Assembly: GCF_000979455.1 (NCBI RefSeq)
Contig: NZ_JJOY01000048.1
Span: 1-64,000, forward strand
Length of the DNA stretch: 64,000 nt
Origin: Methanosarcina sp. 2.H.T.1A.6
GTDB lineage: Archaea; Halobacteriota; Methanosarcinia; Methanosarcinales; Methanosarcinaceae
Direction: 5' to 3'
Shown: positions 23,315-32,536 of the stretch, piece after piece
Numbering within the stretch: the first letter of the stretch is position 1
Layout: every line of letters begins with the position of its first letter
Translations under genes and position numbers: made by a program
The notes under the pieces: model-generated
The model's input: the letters and a program-made list of their open reading frames with translations, nothing else
What the model was told of the DNA's origin: nothing
Database searches by the model: none

Positions 23315-25411
23315 TTATTCGCCTGTATACTCTATAGTAAGTTTAGGTCTCTGAGCTTTGTTTTGCCACTCTGAACTGTATAAAGCAATATAGTTATTAT
23401 CTTCCAGTCTGGCTTTTATAAGGAAACCAGTATTTTCATATTTCCCGCTGGTATATTCCTGCACAAGCTCTGTTACGTCCAGTTCATAATACCTGTCGTC
23501 CGGAAGGGTACTGCCCTTAATAGTTATTGTTGCATATGGTGTGCTGCCCTGAGATACACCTTTTTTATCGTACCAGTCACCTCCCGGATTCTGCCAGAAA
23601 GTTCCTGTTTCTCTTGCTTCCCAGGTAACATGTTCCTCACACCATTTTTCCGGTCTGTATACTTCCAGAATAGTATCTTCCGGCCTGGATTCGTCAGGGT
23701 AATACCAGAACAAAGAGAGGGTTGCCTTTTCAATACTATCTGTTTGACCCAGCTGGTTCAATTCAAACAGTATGATATCCCTGTATTTTCCGCCCTCTGC
23801 TCTTTCACCCACATCCATATATTCGGTTTCCCTAAATGTCGTGTTAGGAGACTCTTCTTTCAGCCTGTTGTCTGAGACAACCGAAGGTAAGGCGATTTTT
23901 ATGTTTTCGTCCTCTGATTCTCCCGAAGTGAACCCCAAAAAGATATTTTTCACAAACCGTACCATTTTTGAGATCGCCCTTTTAATATCTGATCCAAGAC
24001 CTTCTTCCTGTCCCATATCGATGCCATTCTCATCTATCTCATAAGGCATTTCCTGTGGTCCTACTTTCATAGCGTCTGCACAGGGCAGGTTTTGCACTGA
24101 AGACCCATTTTTTTCCAGCTGTTCTATAAGTGCAGGGTCGGCTTGTACGTCCGATGTAGAGCTGGTATACATATAGTCCCCGCCTGCGTTATTTGATAGA
24201 CAGTTTTTTTGAAGGGCGAATGAGTGGGTATTTTCCAATTTATTATAAAATGCGTAACCTTCTCCGGCTGCAGGGCTTGATTTTGTATTTATTATTATAT
24301 TGTTCCGCGCAATGGTTGTATAACCTGTACCCGTGGATGTAAACTCTTCATCTACCTCTTTATGGGCAATTGCCGCCCCGTAGCATCCATCGAATAAGTT
24401 GTTTTCTATCAGGGTATCATAAAAACCATTGAGGACGATACCTCCTGCCCAGTCGGCACCGGGGTTAATACCAGTTTTGTAAAATTTATTGTTGTGAATG
24501 TATATATTTTTTGCAGAGTCTTTTGAATATGTGGACCCATAACCTGTAATCCAGATTCCTGCGGTATTTGTTTCATATAGCAAGTTGTTGTAGATTTCTA
24601 TATCATTCATTACTGTTGACGAACCCGCCTTCTGGATTTCAATTCCAGCTCCACCTTCCCCCTCTGAATTGATAATGTTGTTATAGAATTTAACCTGATT
24701 TCCATTATATACCCTGAGACCGCTGTTTGTTCTGCACGTTATTTTGTTGTTCCATGCTTTTACATTTGAAGAATATATAATATAAAGAGCGTCATGCCCG
24801 AGTTTATATATTGTATTGTTGTAAAACTGAATATTGGAACCTTTCACAACTTTCAGCCCATCTCCGTGGCTGTCATGCATATACATGTCATAAACCTGAA
24901 TATTTTTGCAGTTGAGGAAGTGGATCAGGTTGTAGTACCCCTTTCCCCTGCCTTTTTCTTTATTTCCGTCATGATTGCCGTCAATTTCAAAACCTCTTAT
25001 AGTAATATTCTGGTTTCCCGAGCTATCGATCTGGGTAATCAGGGGCTTATCCAATGGCCAGTCTGCTTTATCTTCAAGTTTTATCACAGCTGTAGAATCC
25101 CCTTCCAGGATCGAGTTGCTTCCAATGAAAATACTACCCGAGATAACGTATGTGTTAGGGCCTTTCAAATGAACGGTCGTAAGCTCCGGATGTTCTGCAA
25201 CGTATTCTAGAGCTTTATTGATCTCTACCTGGTCATCGGTCCCATCGCAGTTGAAATCTCCGCTTCCGTCGGTATTTACATAAACCGTCATTTCGGAAGG
25301 AGCAGTTGAGAGGGCAATAGTTACACTTGCGACCAGAGTAATAAGAAGTAAAATCAGGATTCCTTTTTTCTTTTTTTCTCCCTGTCTATATATCCACTGA
25401 GTTTCGTTCAT
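23315..25411 (-). CDS. Secreted beta-helix protein with C-terminal DNRLRE domain, disaggregatase-like
   Basis: The 698-residue protein has an N-terminal membrane/signal segment (about 17-36) after a basic stretch. A right-handed parallel beta-helix follows (about 45-430), rich in N-N-x-I/N-x-I-x-x-N turns such as YIHNNKFYKTG. After a linker, a DNRLKEESP domain covers about the last 180 residues. It contains SLFWYYPDESRPED and YRPEKW, shared with 28202-29959. Disaggregatases of Methanosarcina cleave the matrix polymer methanochondroitin; this is a relative, so activity is inferred. ATG at 25411 has GGGGGT just upstream. Its beta-helix is close to that of the next gene. Confidence 0.85.
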   Translation of the reverse strand: MNETQWIYRQGEKKKKGILILLLITLVASVTIALSTAPSEMTVYVNTDGSGDFNCDGTDDQVEINKALEYVAEHPELTTVHLKGPNTYVISGSIFIGSNSILEGDSTAVIKLEDKADWPLDKPLITQIDSSGNQNITIRGFEIDGNHDGNKEKGRGKGYYNLIHFLNCKNIQVYDMYMHDSHGDGLKVVKGSNIQFYNNTIYKLGHDALYIIYSSNVKAWNNKITCRTNSGLRVYNGNQVKFYNNIINSEGEGGAGIEIQKAGSSTVMNDIEIYNNLLYETNTAGIWITGYGSTYSKDSAKNIYIHNNKFYKTGINPGADWAGGIVLNGFYDTLIENNLFDGCYGAAIAHKEVDEEFTSTGTGYTTIARNNIIINTKSSPAAGEGYAFYNKLENTHSFALQKNCLSNNAGGDYMYTSSTSDVQADPALIEQLEKNGSSVQNLPCADAMKVGPQEMPYEIDENGIDMGQEEGLGSDIKRAISKMVRFVKNIFLGFTSGESEDENIKIALPSVVSDNRLKEESPNTTFRETEYMDVGERAEGGKYRDIILFELNQLGQTDSIEKATLSLFWYYPDESRPEDTILEVYRPEKWCEEHVTWEARETGTFWQNPGGDWYDKKGVSQGSTPYATITIKGSTLPDDRYYELDVTELVQEYTSGKYENTGFLIKARLEDNNYIALYSSEWQNKAQRPKLTIEYTGE

Positions 25412-25897
25412 TTTGTACCCCCAATACATTAACTATAACTCTCTAAGCTTAAAAAAAGTTATCTGTTGATGTCTGCAAAAAACTTTACAGGAAAGATTTG
25501 AATCCTTTTCATAGTCTGGTGTCCATAGAGCTTGATTGTTTAATGAAGCACCTTCCAGTCTCTTCAAAATTATTGGGATATAATATCTGGAAGTCGTGAA
25601 TCTTTGAGGTTAGTAGAAAAGCCTGTTCTGAACCTTGTCTTATATCTTCACCGCAGAAAGTTAAAGTTCCAGAGCACTTTATTTTCGTTTTTACCTTTTC
25701 TGATGTGACTGGTCAGGATTCAATCGTCAGGTGTGATAAAGATCTAGATTTATAAGCATTCACGTTAGGCTTACATGGATCCGGGGCAGATTTAACTCTA
25801 AAAGTTAAAAGCAAACCCCTGAAAGTTTAAGTTAAAATCTTCTTCCAGGGGGTGGATAAATTAATCTTTTTTAATTAGGGACGCACCTGAGAAAGCA
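25412..25897. other. Intergenic region between two beta-helix genes
   Basis: About 490 bases. I looked on the minus strand for a displaced DNRLRE domain belonging to the upstream gene and saw none. GGGGTTTGCTTTTAACTTTT near 25800 and the surrounding T-rich stretch may belong to transcript ends. Confidence 0.35.
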
Positions 25898-27508
25898 TTA
25901 AATCTGAATTTTAAAGCAGAATAGAAGGAAGGTCTTCAGGAGCATTCTGAACATCCTCCATTCAGGCGAAAATATCTGATGCCACCAGGCCACATATCCG
26001 GGCATTACCCCTGACTTTGATGCTTCTTCAGTGTTTCCGTACCTTCCTATATTGATCCGTTTTCCATTGTCTTCGGGTTCATTTGAGTAGTCTGAGGAGG
26101 AATAACCTGCATCAATGCACGGAGAGCTTTCAATATCCTTTATCCATGTTTCCCCATCCCATCTGCCGCCTGTCGATCTAAGATGGTAATCATTTTCTTT
26201 CTGATTTGTGAAAAGGGGGTTTAAATAAATATCACTTGTTGATGTTGCGTTTCTATAGTCTCCTGCAACATTATTGTAAAAGCAGTTGTTTTCCAGTACA
26301 AGGCTATGGGTTTCGGGGAGGTAATTGACAACACCAAATCCTGTTCCGCTTGACTCGCTCTTGCGACGTTCCGTATTTGTAATTATGTTATTACGGACAA
26401 TGGTCGTGTATCCCTTACCTTTAGGTGAGATGTCTATGGTGCGGTCTGTAGGGTACATCAGGACGATAGCAGCATGATATGTGCCGTCAAACACGTTATT
26501 CTCAATAAGGGTATTGTTAAACCCGCTGGTTACAATACCTCCTACCCAATCAATACTTGGGTTCGTGCCTGTGCTGTAGAATGTATTGTGATGAATATGG
26601 ACACTCTGCGCTTCTTTCAGAGGGTAGCTACCATAGCCCAACAGCCAGATGCCAGGTCCGTAAGTGTTGTGGATGGTATTGTTATATATTTCTATATCAT
26701 CCATGACGGCTGCAGATTTCTGGACCTGAATACCCGGACCACCTGCGCTCCAGTGATAAAAGGAATCAATAGTATTGTCATGGAATTTTACATGATTTGA
26801 GTCCCATACTCTAAGCCCGCTGTTAGTCCTGCAAGTTATCGTATTATTCCAGGCTTCCAGATATTGAGACTGGATCCCGTAAAGACCGTCGTGACCGAGC
26901 TTATATATTTTATTGTTGTAAAACTGAATATTGGAACTGTTTTCAACTTTCAATCCATCTCCATGACTGTCATGCATATACATATCATGAACCTGAATGT
27001 TTGTTGAGTTCATGAAATGGATAAGATTGTAGTATCCAGCGCCTTTCTTTTTATCTGTATTGGCGTCGTGATTTCCGTTTATCTCAAAACCCTTTATAGT
27101 AATATCCTGGTTTCCCTTTCTATCTCTCTGCGTAATCAGGGGCTTGGCAACTGGCCAGTTTGCTTTGTCTTTAAGTTTTATCACAGCTGTGGGGTCCCCT
27201 TCCAGAACGGTATTGTTCCCGACCAGAATACTGTCTGAGATAACGTATGTGTTAGGGCCTTTCAAATGAACGGTTGTAAACTCCTGGTGTTCTGCGACGT
27301 ATGCGAGGGCTTGATTGATCTCTACCTGGTCGTCAGTCCCATTACAGTTAAAGGTCCCACTCCCGTCTCCAGCCACATAAACTGTCATGCCTGATGGCGT
27401 GATCGAAAGGGCGGTTGTTACCATTACAATCAAGAACATGAAGACTGCAATGTAAAAACCCGTTTTTTTTCTGTTTCCCCATCTGTTTATAAGATCTTTT
27501 CCGTTCAT
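25898..27508 (-). CDS. Secreted beta-helix protein without DNRLRE domain
   Basis: The protein has 536 residues: a basic N-terminus, a membrane/signal segment (about 17-37), then a beta-helix whose sequence runs nearly parallel to that of 23315-25411 (both contain MTVYV, CDGTDDQVEIN/CNGTDDQVEIN, VHLKGPNTYVIS, MYMHDSHGDGLKV). The helix ends with a pectate-lyase-like CIDAGYSSSDY turn. The C-terminus differs: a short hydrophobic, aromatic tail replaces the DNRLRE part. It may be a matrix-bound lyase or adhesin. It could be a truncated relative, but nothing downstream looks like a broken domain. Confidence 0.82.
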   Translation of the reverse strand: MNGKDLINRWGNRKKTGFYIAVFMFLIVMVTTALSITPSGMTVYVAGDGSGTFNCNGTDDQVEINQALAYVAEHQEFTTVHLKGPNTYVISDSILVGNNTVLEGDPTAVIKLKDKANWPVAKPLITQRDRKGNQDITIKGFEINGNHDANTDKKKGAGYYNLIHFMNSTNIQVHDMYMHDSHGDGLKVENSSNIQFYNNKIYKLGHDGLYGIQSQYLEAWNNTITCRTNSGLRVWDSNHVKFHDNTIDSFYHWSAGGPGIQVQKSAAVMDDIEIYNNTIHNTYGPGIWLLGYGSYPLKEAQSVHIHHNTFYSTGTNPSIDWVGGIVTSGFNNTLIENNVFDGTYHAAIVLMYPTDRTIDISPKGKGYTTIVRNNIITNTERRKSESSGTGFGVVNYLPETHSLVLENNCFYNNVAGDYRNATSTSDIYLNPLFTNQKENDYHLRSTGGRWDGETWIKDIESSPCIDAGYSSSDYSNEPEDNGKRINIGRYGNTEEASKSGVMPGYVAWWHQIFSPEWRMFRMLLKTFLLFCFKIQI

Positions 27509-28201
27509 TTTTTATCCCTGCACCCTGAGATATAATTCCTCCAAACTTGAATAAAATTTATCGCTGGAAGGTACTGTCACTGGAGTTTTTTTAAAAAACC
27601 TGATGTCATCAGTGATCTCACGGGTTTAATCTTCACAACAGTTAAAAATAATTCTTTGCACGCTATCGGCTTTTCTCGAATCCATATGAGCTCTAACATA
27701 AAGATACTAATCATTGATTGCGGCAGTGTACAAAAAGCTTATGTGCTTAAAGTTATTCACATTGTTGGGGGGTATGTATTGAATAGACAACGTCTTATGA
27801 ATCAGAATAGCTCTATTTATATAATCCGATTTGAAAACAAATTTATGTACAGTTAGCTGATTTAAATTTTTAACAGCAACACACGAGTACTTTTTGAAAT
27901 ATATGTACTATTAAATTATTTATTTGCTCTGAGGGGAGTTAATATGTTCGATAAAACTTTATTCCTACTTCTGTATGAAATTGTCTACTCATTTTTTTCT
28001 AACCTGCAGACATTCCATCAGATCTCAATGAAATTCATATGAAAAGAAGATCAAAGGAAAAACTTTCCGCAGTTTTTAGCCTGAAAATTCTCCCTTATGA
28101 CTAAAATAAGTTGGAAGAACTCAAAGGTCTGGGTTACGGAGGTCTTTTTGTCATCTCCGCACTTCCCGCCTTTCAGAGGTCTCTTCCTGAAGTTAGGGCT
28201 G
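27509..28201. other. Intergenic region between beta-helix genes
   Basis: About 690 bases with no convincing gene. The plus-strand frame at 27656-27856 has 66 codons, no ribosome site and no recognisable motif. AT-rich stretches around 27820-27920 could hold a promoter for the minus-strand gene that starts at 27508, though they lie far upstream. Confidence 0.35.
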
Positions 28202-29959
28202 TTAAGCTACAGCTTTCTCTTCTATATTCAGTATTGGGCGCTGGTTTTCATCTTCGATTTCGCTGCTGTAGAATGCTACGTAATCCGCATTTTCGGTACG
28301 GGTTTTAATCAGGAACCCTGTGTTTTCGTACTCGCCGCTGACGTACTCTTTTACGAGATCAGTTACGTTCAGCTCATAGTACCTGTTGTCCGGTATATCG
28401 GTTCCGTTCAGGGTTATCGTAGCGTACGGTGCGTCTCCCTGAGAGACATTATTCATGTCTAACCAGTCTCCTCCGGGTTGTGTCCAGAGCACACCATTAT
28501 CCCTGCTGTTCCAGGTCACATTTTCAGGATTCCAGGTTGCAGCGGGTCTGTATATCTCTACAACCGCATCTTCTGGTCTTTCCCGTCTGTCAGGATAATA
28601 CCAGTAGAGGGAAAGGGTTGCATTGCTAATATTTTCAGCATCGTTGTAGTCACTCAGGTCAAACAGGAGCAGATCTCTGTACTTTCCTACTCCAGGCCTG
28701 CCTCCTATGTCAATATACGCTTTTTCCTGGTAGACGGTGTCAGGAGAAGCTTCCCTGAGACGGTTGTCTATAACAATGCTTGTTGCATTTTCCTCAGGTA
28801 ATGATACGGTATCAGTTCCAACTACCTGTTCAGGAGCGGTCTCTGTTACAGCAATTTCATTAGCTGTTGTCTGATTATTGGTCGTTGCAACTTCGGTTTC
28901 TTTTGTCTCTGTTACAGCGGTTTCATTAGCTGTTGTCTGGGCATCTGTTCCAGATGTTGGATTTTCAGCTGTTGTACTCTGTGAGCCTGACGCCTTGCCA
29001 ATAGAGCCGTATCCATACCCTTTCGCTACCCAATTATCAACGCTGTGATCGGATGGTCCTAATATGTTTGTGCCTGAGCCTACCTCAACGTAAGGAGACA
29101 CATTCCACATAACGTTATCACGAACGCTAATCGACCCTTTTGCATTCCAATTTCCAATGCCTGCACTGCTGCTTGATCCTTTGTAATCATGCATAATGTT
29201 GTGATGGACATCCACATTTGTCAGTGTATTTTCCAGCTCAACGCAGCACCATCCGGACCCTGCACTACCTGTGAAGGTATTATGATCCACTTCAATATTT
29301 GCACAGTTGTCTACCCTGACACCTGTGTTGGTCTGAACCTCAACGTAACAGTTATACATTCTGGAATCCTTAGTGCCGGACAAAAATGACACACCATCGT
29401 GTCCAGAGGACGTTATTCTGCAATTATATACCTCTATTCCAGAACTTTTACCGATTCTGACACCATCACCATACAGATAGCGATTGAATAAAATGTCATG
29501 TACTTTACTGTTAGTTACAGAGGTAAATTTTATGCAGTTACGGTAGTCTCCATGACCTCCATCTCCAGGTCCGGTTGCTGTACTCTGGAATTGAAGATTA
29601 GATACTTCAACGTTAGAAACACCTGATCCGTATACATACGCAGGTGATCCCGCGGAGTTACAAACTGAGCCAGTAGCAAAGATTATTGTACTGTCGCCCG
29701 CGCCTTTTAGTACTACATTAGATTTCAAAATTATAGGTGCACTTATCTTATAAGTGCCAGCACTAAGGAGAACATATCCCGGGTTACTTGATGTTGCTCC
29801 TGATGCTACGGAATTTATTGCATTATTAATTGCAGTCTGGGCATCTGATCCAGACGTTGCATTTACAGTTATCGTATTCTGTGCGCCTAACGCAGCGGGT
29901 ACGGTTGTTAAAATAAGGCATGTTACTAGGAATAGGGTTCCTATCTGTCTTTTTAGCAT
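28202..29959 (-). CDS. Disaggregatase-like secreted protein: beta-helix plus DNRLRE domain
   Basis: The 585-residue protein starts with a classic signal peptide (MLKRQIGTLFLVTCLILTT, cleavage after A-L-G-A). A beta-helix follows (about 30-320), including LLSAGTYKIS and GSGWCCVELENT. Next is a Thr/Glu-rich linker of about 70 residues with repeated TTANExAVTET, then the DNRLREASP domain to the end. This order fits Methanosarcina disaggregatase, which depolymerises methanochondroitin and frees single cells. ATG at 29959 follows AAAGGTGAT. The leader and signal-peptide region is repeated twice upstream. Substrate is inferred from the family. Confidence 0.87.
   Translation of the reverse strand: MLKRQIGTLFLVTCLILTTVPAALGAQNTITVNATSGSDAQTAINNAINSVASGATSSNPGYVLLSAGTYKISAPIILKSNVVLKGAGDSTIIFATGSVCNSAGSPAYVYGSGVSNVEVSNLQFQSTATGPGDGGHGDYRNCIKFTSVTNSKVHDILFNRYLYGDGVRIGKSSGIEVYNCRITSSGHDGVSFLSGTKDSRMYNCYVEVQTNTGVRVDNCANIEVDHNTFTGSAGSGWCCVELENTLTNVDVHHNIMHDYKGSSSSAGIGNWNAKGSISVRDNVMWNVSPYVEVGSGTNILGPSDHSVDNWVAKGYGYGSIGKASGSQSTTAENPTSGTDAQTTANETAVTETKETEVATTNNQTTANEIAVTETAPEQVVGTDTVSLPEENATSIVIDNRLREASPDTVYQEKAYIDIGGRPGVGKYRDLLLFDLSDYNDAENISNATLSLYWYYPDRRERPEDAVVEIYRPAATWNPENVTWNSRDNGVLWTQPGGDWLDMNNVSQGDAPYATITLNGTDIPDNRYYELNVTDLVKEYVSGEYENTGFLIKTRTENADYVAFYSSEIEDENQRPILNIEEKAVA
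28830..28945 (-). repeat. Internal repeat encoding the Thr/Glu linker
   Basis: TCTCTGTTACAGC followed by TTTCATTAGCTGTTGTCTG occurs twice, about 70 bases apart, within the linker of the disaggregatase-like gene. It encodes the duplicated TTANExAVTET segment. Confidence 0.6.
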
Positions 29960-30014
29960 CGTATCACCTTTGGGTTGGATTTGGAATTTGAGCAATATCA
30001 AAAAATTTGTAGGG

Positions 30015-30101
30015 TCATTGTATATTTTTTCCCAAAGCACATACGGCCGTTAAACTAAGATATGTTTTCAGGAATAGGGTTTCCTGTTTCATTTTTAGCA
30101 T
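30015..30101 (-). pseudogene. Truncated signal-peptide ORF, second leader copy
   Basis: Twenty-eight codons from the ATG at 30101, beginning MLKMKQETLFL and ending in a stop before the mature protein would start. It is a remnant of the tandem duplication, or possibly a translated leader peptide. Confidence 0.5.
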
Positions 30102-30138
30102 CGTATCGCCTCTGATTGGATTTAGAATTTGAGTAAAC

Positions 30139-30240
30139 TCAAAAAACTATTAAGCAGTTATATATTTCTCCAACAGTTGATACGGTTGTTAAAATAAGAC
30201 ATATTGTCAGGAATAGGGTTCCTTGATTCATTTTTAGCAT
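30139..30240 (-). pseudogene. Truncated signal-peptide ORF, third leader copy
   Basis: Thirty-three codons from the ATG at 30240. MLKMNQGTLFLTICLILTTV is almost the signal peptide of the full gene, and it ends in a stop after a short unrelated tail. The ribosome site (GAGGCGAT) and spacing are intact. Confidence 0.55.
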
Positions 30241-30332
30241 CGTATCGCCTCTGATTGGATTTAGAATTTGAGTAAACTCAAAAAATCCAGGATAATCGTA
30301 TACTTTTTCCCAGATATTTCTCAAAATTCCAT

Positions 30333-30446
30333 ATTACGTATTCGTAATGTTTTTCCGAACTATCTAATTAGACCGAGTTTATCTCAAATATCTAATTATG
30401 TCGGGTCTATGCGGTAATTCAAAAATTCTAATTACGTCTTCGTAAT
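30333..30446. promoter_or_regulatory. Pair of ATTACG palindromes upstream of the disaggregatase leaders
   Basis: ATTACGTATTCGTAAT (30333-30348) and ATTACGTCTTCGTAAT (30431-30446) share six-base arms and are followed by similar T-rich sequence. Two TCTAATTA sequences lie between them. The spacing of 98 bases and the location ahead of the tripled leader make them candidate operators. Confidence 0.45.
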
Positions 30447-32536
30447 ATTTTTGAACCTTTTCAATTCGGTTCTCTGCGTTTTTGTGGGGCGGACACGTTG
30501 CAGAGGATTTTCCACTCTTCATTTTCACTGTTATGAGTGGCTATTTTTTTGGAGGTGGCCGGACACGAGAAGCTCTGGTTCTGGATTTTTATTCAAAGTT
30601 TGTATAACGACAGGATATTTCTCCTTTTAGGACAATATTTCCTGTTCTTATCAACCATAGCTTTTAGCCCGGTCAACTCATCTGCGAAACTTTTGTTTAC
30701 TTATGTAATGTTGAGTTGACTTTGAAGTTTATGTGATTCTCATATATAACCTTTCCGTTACTTATTTAACTATCTTTGGATAGTCCGCGAGACATTTTAT
30801 ATTCTTGTACGCACCTCTTTATAAGTAAAAGCAGTTTCTGATATACAAAGTTACATAGATTTTCAGGACATAACTTATACTATTAATTCATATAGTAGCT
30901 TGCACATTGTGTTTTTCTATATTTATATACTTTTAAGGTGCACATCGATGTCTCTTTACAGCCCGCGAGGAACACTTTTTTCTAATTAACACTGTTTATT
31001 TTCTACTGAATTATTTGACAGCAGAGGTTGGGCTAAATTATATACAGTTTTTTCACTTTTTTCTTCTGTCAAAATAAAATGTGATTCTAATACCATTAAT
31101 TTTCACCCGGGTTGGATCTCTAAAACGCCTGTTTTCTGCCAGTCTCATACGCGGAGATCCATACATCGTATATTATTTTTGCTTTGATAATCCATTCTTT
31201 ATACTGTTCCCATTGTCACTGCGTGCAGTAAAAATCTTTTTATTAGAAATTCTTCAATAACTCTTTAAATAGAATGAGGGGTACTGAAATATAACTAATT
31301 CTAAAAGTGAATCCCTCTACTCCCCTTATCTATTATATGTTCTTTATCGAGTTTCTCTAATTAAGTCTGTATCTCTTATCAAACTGACCTTTCTACTGCT
31401 CTACTCAACCATATTTCTAAAGATCCCAAATCAAGATTATATTGATGCTTACATAATCATTTCTCGTAACTGAAAATCCCTTTTAAAAATTGTGAGAGCA
31501 TCTGCTAAAAGTAGTAATGTTTTTTCTGGAATTTTCATCAACCGCAGAATCCATCACAGAAGGTGCGATCCGCACAATAATACTTTTTCTCTCCACGGCA
31601 ATATAACTAATATTCAGGAGTCTGGAAGGCATTCTTTTTAGAGCCTTCCTTTTTCTCAAAGAGGCTCTGTTCTATTCAGTAATCTAAATATTTTAACAGT
31701 GATTTCGTTTTTTCAATTGGTTTACAACTCAAAAGTCGCTTTAGGTTTTCGCGGTTCCAATAACAGTTCTGAGTTCTACACCTTCAGGTATCATTCCGAA
31801 AAACCCGTTTGAAGCCTAATACCATTAGTTTTGAAGCCTAATACCATTAGTTTTGATCTGGAATTTTTTAGCCGTATTATCCGAAGGGATCGAAACCTGA
31901 AAAGTCTATACAGGGCAATTTATCTGATTTTCACTTTATATAATTAGTTAAAATAAGTCTCAGCTTCATGGAATTATTCCTATTTCTACCCTCAGACCGG
32001 GAGCAGAATTTTTTCCCAAGCACCTTTTCCATAAAACCAGCTTTCTTGCCGCCAGCCTTTTTATATCCAGTACTTAATATTATTTTATCATAGCTTTGTC
32101 TATGGAAAATTTCTCTAAAAAATATCATCCGAAAAAAGACTTCGATTTATTTGATTTCTTGGAAATCTGTACTTCGTTTTTCCAGGCAAATAATTGAACT
32201 GATGATTTTTGTTGCTTTGCTTAAAGCCCCACTCCCTCGACGAAGGGCAACTCAGACTATCTATGGTAAACATGCCATATTTATACTTATCACATCGGTA
32301 TAAGTTATTTATTTTGTTTTCGCCGTTACCGTATTTTTTTTTTAATTCAGTAAATCTTGGCTCCTTTCTTTCTTATGATATCTCACAAAATCTTTTATAC
32401 TCTTAAGGTGTTCGTTTAAATGGGGAGGCTTTCTAAGCCATTGGGGAATGCATAGTTGCTAATTCCCATTCTTAGTGAAACTTCCAGTCCAGTTTCACGA
32501 TATATGCAAATACGCTCTTAGTGAGGAGGGGATTTC
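30447..32536. other. Long gene-poor region, AT-rich
   Basis: About 2.1 kb with no convincing protein or RNA gene; the longest frames have 60-65 codons and lack ribosome sites. It contains a 22-base tandem repeat at 31809-31852. The region may be decayed DNA or very long untranslated sequence. Confidence 0.4.
31809..31852. repeat. 22-base tandem duplication
   Basis: TTGAAGCCTAATACCATTAG plus two T occurs twice in direct succession without mismatch. Confidence 0.8.

Follow-up and report, generated by a model that had tools for sequence, protein, structure and literature searches.

We identified three head-to-tail units of about 140 nt on the minus strand of the 64,000-nt window (the whole stretch of Methanosarcina sp. 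2.H.T.1A.6 DNA analysed here), at positions 29880–30318, each consisting of a hairpin, a Shine-Dalgarno (SD) sequence, an ATG and a signal-peptide-like ORF. The array reads most plausibly, if not overwhelmingly so, as tandem upstream ORFs (uORFs) in a long leader that would control in cis how a secreted protein is translated, the duplicated gene start having probably been retained as a regulatory element. An initial annotation had proposed that the short ORFs were silent remnants, that the array was a cassette for changing the promoter-to-gene distance by recombination, or that upstream peptides tuned translation. The last of these ideas is the best supported by sequence comparison, since a single predicted transcript has all units within its long conserved leader, and one of the uORFs shows coding selection.

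The unit ATGs are located at 29959 (unit A), 30101 (unit B) and 30240 (unit C), with start-to-start distances of 142 and 139 nt, and each is preceded by a hairpin-like sequence of the TTGAGTnnACTCAA type, an SD motif (GGTGAT or GGCGAT) and ACG. The initiation regions, all on the minus strand, occupy 30241–30284 in unit C (hairpin-like repeat and SD, AGAGGCGAT), 30102–30145 in unit B and 29960–30003 in unit A, where GGTGATACG runs into the ATG of the real gene; anti-SD duplex energies, averaged over loci, were −7.6 kcal/mol for C, −9.1 kcal/mol for B and −9.5 kcal/mol for A. Only unit A is joined to a mature protein, its ORF starting MLKRQIGTLFLVTCLILTTVPAALGA and continuing through a 585-aa gene (28202–29959, minus strand), while unit B encodes the 28-aa MLKMKQETLFLKTYLSLTAVCALGKNIQ (uORF B, 30015–30101) and unit C the 33-aa MLKMNQGTLFLTICLILTTVSTVGEIYNCLIVF (uORF C, 30139–30240), each followed by a stop codon. 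Repeat detection returned three copies of 121 nt; relative to the middle copy, the two flanking ones have identities of 88% and 62%. Together with the ORFs, this bears out the initial description of three ATGs with a repeated start region, one of them joined to a mature protein. The further description of the signal peptides as near-identical did not hold for the peptides, since over the first 25 residues (counted by hand) the peptide of A is matched at about 60% of positions by that of C and at about 52% by that of B, although the DNA of the initiation regions is much more alike. Neither chance nor an assembly error explains the array: the copies have diverged by 12–38%, which makes a sequencing or assembly duplication very unlikely, and the same array is present in many related genomes, including several assembled as one contig.

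The 585-aa product is a secreted pectate-lyase-like, right-handed beta-helix protein with a C-terminal Disaggr_repeat domain (Pfam PF12708, PF13229 and PF06848), features that fit a disaggregatase-related protein; the PF08480 domain found by Pfam in two neighbouring genes is absent from it. According to a review (PMC12369344), disaggregatase is the enzyme that degrades methanochondroitin, and M. mazei is the only species in which it has been characterised; the domain content suggests that the 585-aa gene may encode such an enzyme. Three consecutive secreted beta-helix genes, of 704, 536 and 585 aa, with PF08480 and/or PF06848, lie at 23315–30040 on the minus strand, and among them the leader and array occur only at the 585-aa gene.

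In a DNA search, 29 of the 31 Methanosarcina genomes gave a match to the unit, and a first search of 11 genomes of other genera returned no match. We retrieved 79 loci and counted the units in each; one genome was sampled per species and the loci are related, so that the counts are not independent. Of 28 DAG-type loci (mature start AQNTITV), 19 carried three units, eight carried two and one carried a single unit, which disposes of the possibility, raised in the initial annotation, that the unit is single-copy in all relatives. Spacing in the DAG arrays was 133–149 nt, with one exception of 172 nt in a contig containing a run of N (L058), and an intact upstream signal-peptide-like ORF was kept in every two-unit DAG locus. 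The GDG paralogues, of about 298 aa, mostly have one unit, some two, and one has three. Their upstream units are often broken; the leader is common to these paralogues and a uORF is usually absent, indicating that the leader can work without uORFs.

The units cluster by position across species, with bootstrap values of 100 for clade A and 99 for clade B (C was unresolved as a single clade), indicating that the array is ancient and that the triplication is older than the sampled species. Identity was 84–88% between units of the same position in different loci, and 67–73% between different positions within one locus, no higher than between loci, which rules out gene conversion as a process keeping the copies alike. 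The two-unit arrays are recombinants, with a C leader and B tail in L052, L054 and L109 and a B leader and A tail in L053, L100 and L106, and unit number thus appears to change slowly, via recombination between units. We found no sign of frequent unit-number switching in the loci of the 31 genomes, one per species, and in the same sample the copies differed from phase-variable or contingency repeats in being 12–38% diverged, in forming position-specific clades and in lacking homogenisation. The idea of a distance-changing cassette therefore stands only in that recombination shrinks arrays over evolution; position clades, the lack of homogenisation and a single promoter box about 490 nt above all units speak against the remainder.

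Fifteen three-unit loci with complete flanking sequence served to measure conservation within the array. The hairpin and SD had identities to the consensus of 0.91 in unit C, 0.93 in B and 0.93 in A, and conservation within the array was lowest in the spacers preceding A and B (0.75–0.81). The uORFs of three-unit loci have their own ATG and SD, and for uORF B the start, SD and frame were kept in 19 of 19 such loci, one of them with a GTG start. Codon-position conservation was 0.919/0.928/0.844 in uORF B and 0.931/0.962/0.848 in the mature gene, and the parsimony changes in uORF B, at 28/27/54 by codon position, were in excess at third positions (permutation p 0.006–0.008). Using fixed gene trees and likelihoods compared on a parameter grid, we obtained an omega of 0.62 for uORF B (2dlnL 5.2 versus neutrality) and of 0.6 for the real signal peptide. 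These tests on B, which cover 24–25 codons in 18 related loci, indicate modest purifying, coding-type selection on uORF B. No coding selection was detected on uORF C, which was flat by codon position (0.878/0.861/0.897), had an omega of about 1 and was frame-disrupted or frame-scrambled in four of 19 copies. In L113 uORF C has an early stop; in L060, L082 and L103, which form one clade, an early frameshift was later undone and the C-terminal frame restored. A conserved reading frame or peptide was accordingly found for uORF B and not for uORF C, and unit C seems to be retained for its initiation site rather than for its peptide.

The strongest rival to regulation by tandem uORFs is that C and B are decaying duplicates, roleless leftovers of the old triplication that persist near other conserved sequence. 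The broken upstream units of the 298-aa paralogues, and the unconstrained and in a few species disrupted frame of uORF C, are what such decay would leave. It does not account for the frame and coding-type substitution of uORF B at all three-unit loci, nor for hairpin and SD sequences in C and B that are as conserved as those of the real gene while the spacers drift, and we consider it unlikely. The initial suggestion of silent remnants thus fails for B and may be correct for the peptide of C, with the reservation that the hairpin and SD of unit C are still as conserved as those of the real gene.

Across the signal-peptide coding part of the real gene (29885–29959, minus strand), codon-position identity was 0.947/0.961/0.956, so that third positions differ little in conservation from first and second ones, whereas third positions in the mature part reach 0.848; this suggests that the start region is constrained as RNA. 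Such conservation beyond coding need, and the sharing of the start region by the paralogues, would be expected if a small RNA acting in trans, or an RNA-binding protein, bound the repeated start regions, which would then titrate or multiply this regulator irrespective of translation. Such target or decoy sites would leave the coding selection on uORF B unexplained, and uORF B is no more constrained at third positions than the mature gene is; we regard this explanation as very unlikely.

No conserved coupling geometry was found between successive ORFs: uORF stop positions vary, and the distance from stop to next start is mostly 35–60 nt, with some overlapping. Fused or read-through products were not supported, the spacings modulo 3 being mixed (0:15, 1:11, 2:20), and an attenuator-like conserved U-tract and stop geometry was likewise unsupported, as the positions vary.

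Upstream of the array, we identified a box, CAAAAATATTTTATAATA, in 52 of 57 loci, mostly 485–520 nt upstream of the first unit ATG, a distance that is similar for arrays of one, two or three units. The first arm of a hairpin, GTCAACTCA, usually begins 19–21 nt 3' of the box. The window's own copy has diverged to GGTTATATATGAG (30739–30751, minus strand) and is a predicted archaeal TATA box, assigned from its homologous position to the genus-wide box. Both the promoter box and the structured leader are upstream of every unit, and all units are predicted to lie within one 5' leader of about 760 nt on one mRNA.

A conserved promoter box before the units themselves was found in none of the 57, and this single box above all units argues that the units are upstream ORFs and not movable promoters. 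Were each unit to bring its own promoter, the array could multiply or space transcription starts, with recombination tuning the distance, and the spacers are indeed AT-rich, with a TATA-like hexamer before B in four of 19 loci (including AAATATATAA in the window) and before A in one of 19. These hexamers are nonetheless missing at most loci, and the spacers that would hold the promoters are those least conserved in the array, making tandem promoters highly improbable. The notion that the tails of B (and C) are released by signal-peptide cleavage and act as signals outside the cell, coupling disaggregation to cell density, is barely credible, since the tails, while many copies share a short KNRL or KNxQ behind the signal-peptide-like core of uORF B, vary in length and sequence by species (KNRL, KKYTLTR, NYTRTPEIS, KIY).

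The region between box and units folds with a z-score of −4.1, and none of 100 shuffles was equally stable. In the window, this structured leader RNA spans 30320–30720 (minus strand) with a predicted start near 30720, and fold z-score and alignments place in it the hairpins GUCAACUC/GAGUUGAC, CUCUGC/GCAGAG, GAACC/GGUUC and others. Fold stability gave no strand signal (z-scores of −4.13 and −4.15); an excess of G-U cells (about 56) over A-C cells (about 7) in the leader alignments, counted by hand, favours an RNA transcribed from the gene strand. The H5–H7 leader alignment yielded no useful consensus fold, apparently because of two misaligned sequence classes, and element A3 was used instead.

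Adjacent to the array lies leader element R1 (30321–30453, minus strand), in which two AUUACG-N4-CGUAAU hairpins flank a CCGA/UCGG and UAAUUAGA/UCUAAUUA stem. Over 46 sequences, 98.2% of R1 cells were paired and 28 cells were double changes, against 9.6 in shuffles, a control that retains the relatedness of the loci, so that the covariation is support rather than proof. One inner pair was UA (30 sequences) or CG (16 sequences), and a second was AU (22) or GU (21). The R1 model gave 58 matches, in 28 of 31 Methanosarcina genomes, and none among 155 further genomes of the order. The leader matches no Rfam family. By coordinate comparison, the R1 matches coincide with unit-bearing loci except for one at a contig end (G009:C34:110-228, minus strand), where the sequence shows no downstream gene. 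The two R1 hairpins (ATTACG-N4-CGTAAT in DNA) can pair locally or with each other, and the leader might possibly act as a two-state switch through this alternative pairing. In L056 the segment between the two R1 dyads is deleted, and in L044 and L116 a gene family of 348–353 aa has a unit and the upper part of the leader (CACCTCC...GGAG hairpin) without R1.

For regulation by tandem uORFs, we infer from these data a transcription start, translation of the uORFs, and a direction and mechanism of effect. Transcription would begin from a single promoter near 30745 and pass through about 400 nt of structured leader, followed by uORF C, uORF B and the real gene. C and B are old tandem duplicates of the start of the gene itself, comprising hairpin, SD, ATG and signal peptide, and ribosomes would initiate at both besides A. 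The uORFs, chiefly B, would set the output of the secreted protein by capturing ribosomes or by keeping the long leader occupied. As the chain encoded by B is still signal-peptide-like and under selection, it could also bring the mRNA to the secretion machinery or sense that machinery. A bolder version, in our judgement quite doubtful, makes uORF B, a duplicate of the enzyme's own signal peptide, a regulatory nascent chain in an archaeon: during its synthesis it would tether the mRNA to the membrane or signal the available secretion capacity, and jointly with R1 as a two-state leader RNA it would set the amount of matrix-degrading enzyme released.

The array resembles prokaryotic regulatory uORFs and leader peptides (trp leader peptides; uORF4u, PMC10219788) in its short, SD-preceded ORFs, its long predicted 5' leader, its association with one gene family and the coding selection on one of its ORFs. 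It differs in being a tandem pair, both members of which copy the start and signal peptide of the main gene, in being archaeal and in accompanying a structured leader RNA. With the secretion-monitoring arrest peptides SecM, MifM, VemP and their relatives (bacterial surveys PMC7897499, PMC10987492), it shares an export-signal ORF upstream of an export-tied gene; the surveys cover bacteria, the ORFs here are mostly of 26–48 codons, and the downstream gene is an exported beta-helix protein and not a Sec component. Neither did we find a SecM-type conserved C-terminal arrest motif, as uORF C-termini and stops vary between species, and with motif and target gene both lacking we do not assign the array to this type. 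A Ribo-seq study of M. mazei (PMC11456600) reports that 10% of the small ORFs it newly identified as translated lie within 5' UTRs of annotated genes, which shows that uORF translation does occur in Methanosarcina; disaggregatase is not mentioned in the main text of that study.

Riboswitch-like leaders in Rfam similarly have conserved structure upstream of a gene family and two possible alternative pairings; the present leader differs in matching no family and in having been found only in Methanosarcina. Leader peptides and structured leaders are known kinds of element; what is new is that a tandem array of uORFs derived from the gene itself follows a genus-specific leader RNA without an Rfam entry.

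To our knowledge, the post-transcriptional control of secreted proteins in archaea is poorly known. Disaggregatase disperses Methanosarcina aggregates, and the leader and its self-derived tandem uORFs stand upstream of genes related to this enzyme. They offer, in methanogens amenable to genetics, a locus at which uORF control, mRNA targeting guided by a signal peptide and switching of a leader RNA can be tested directly.
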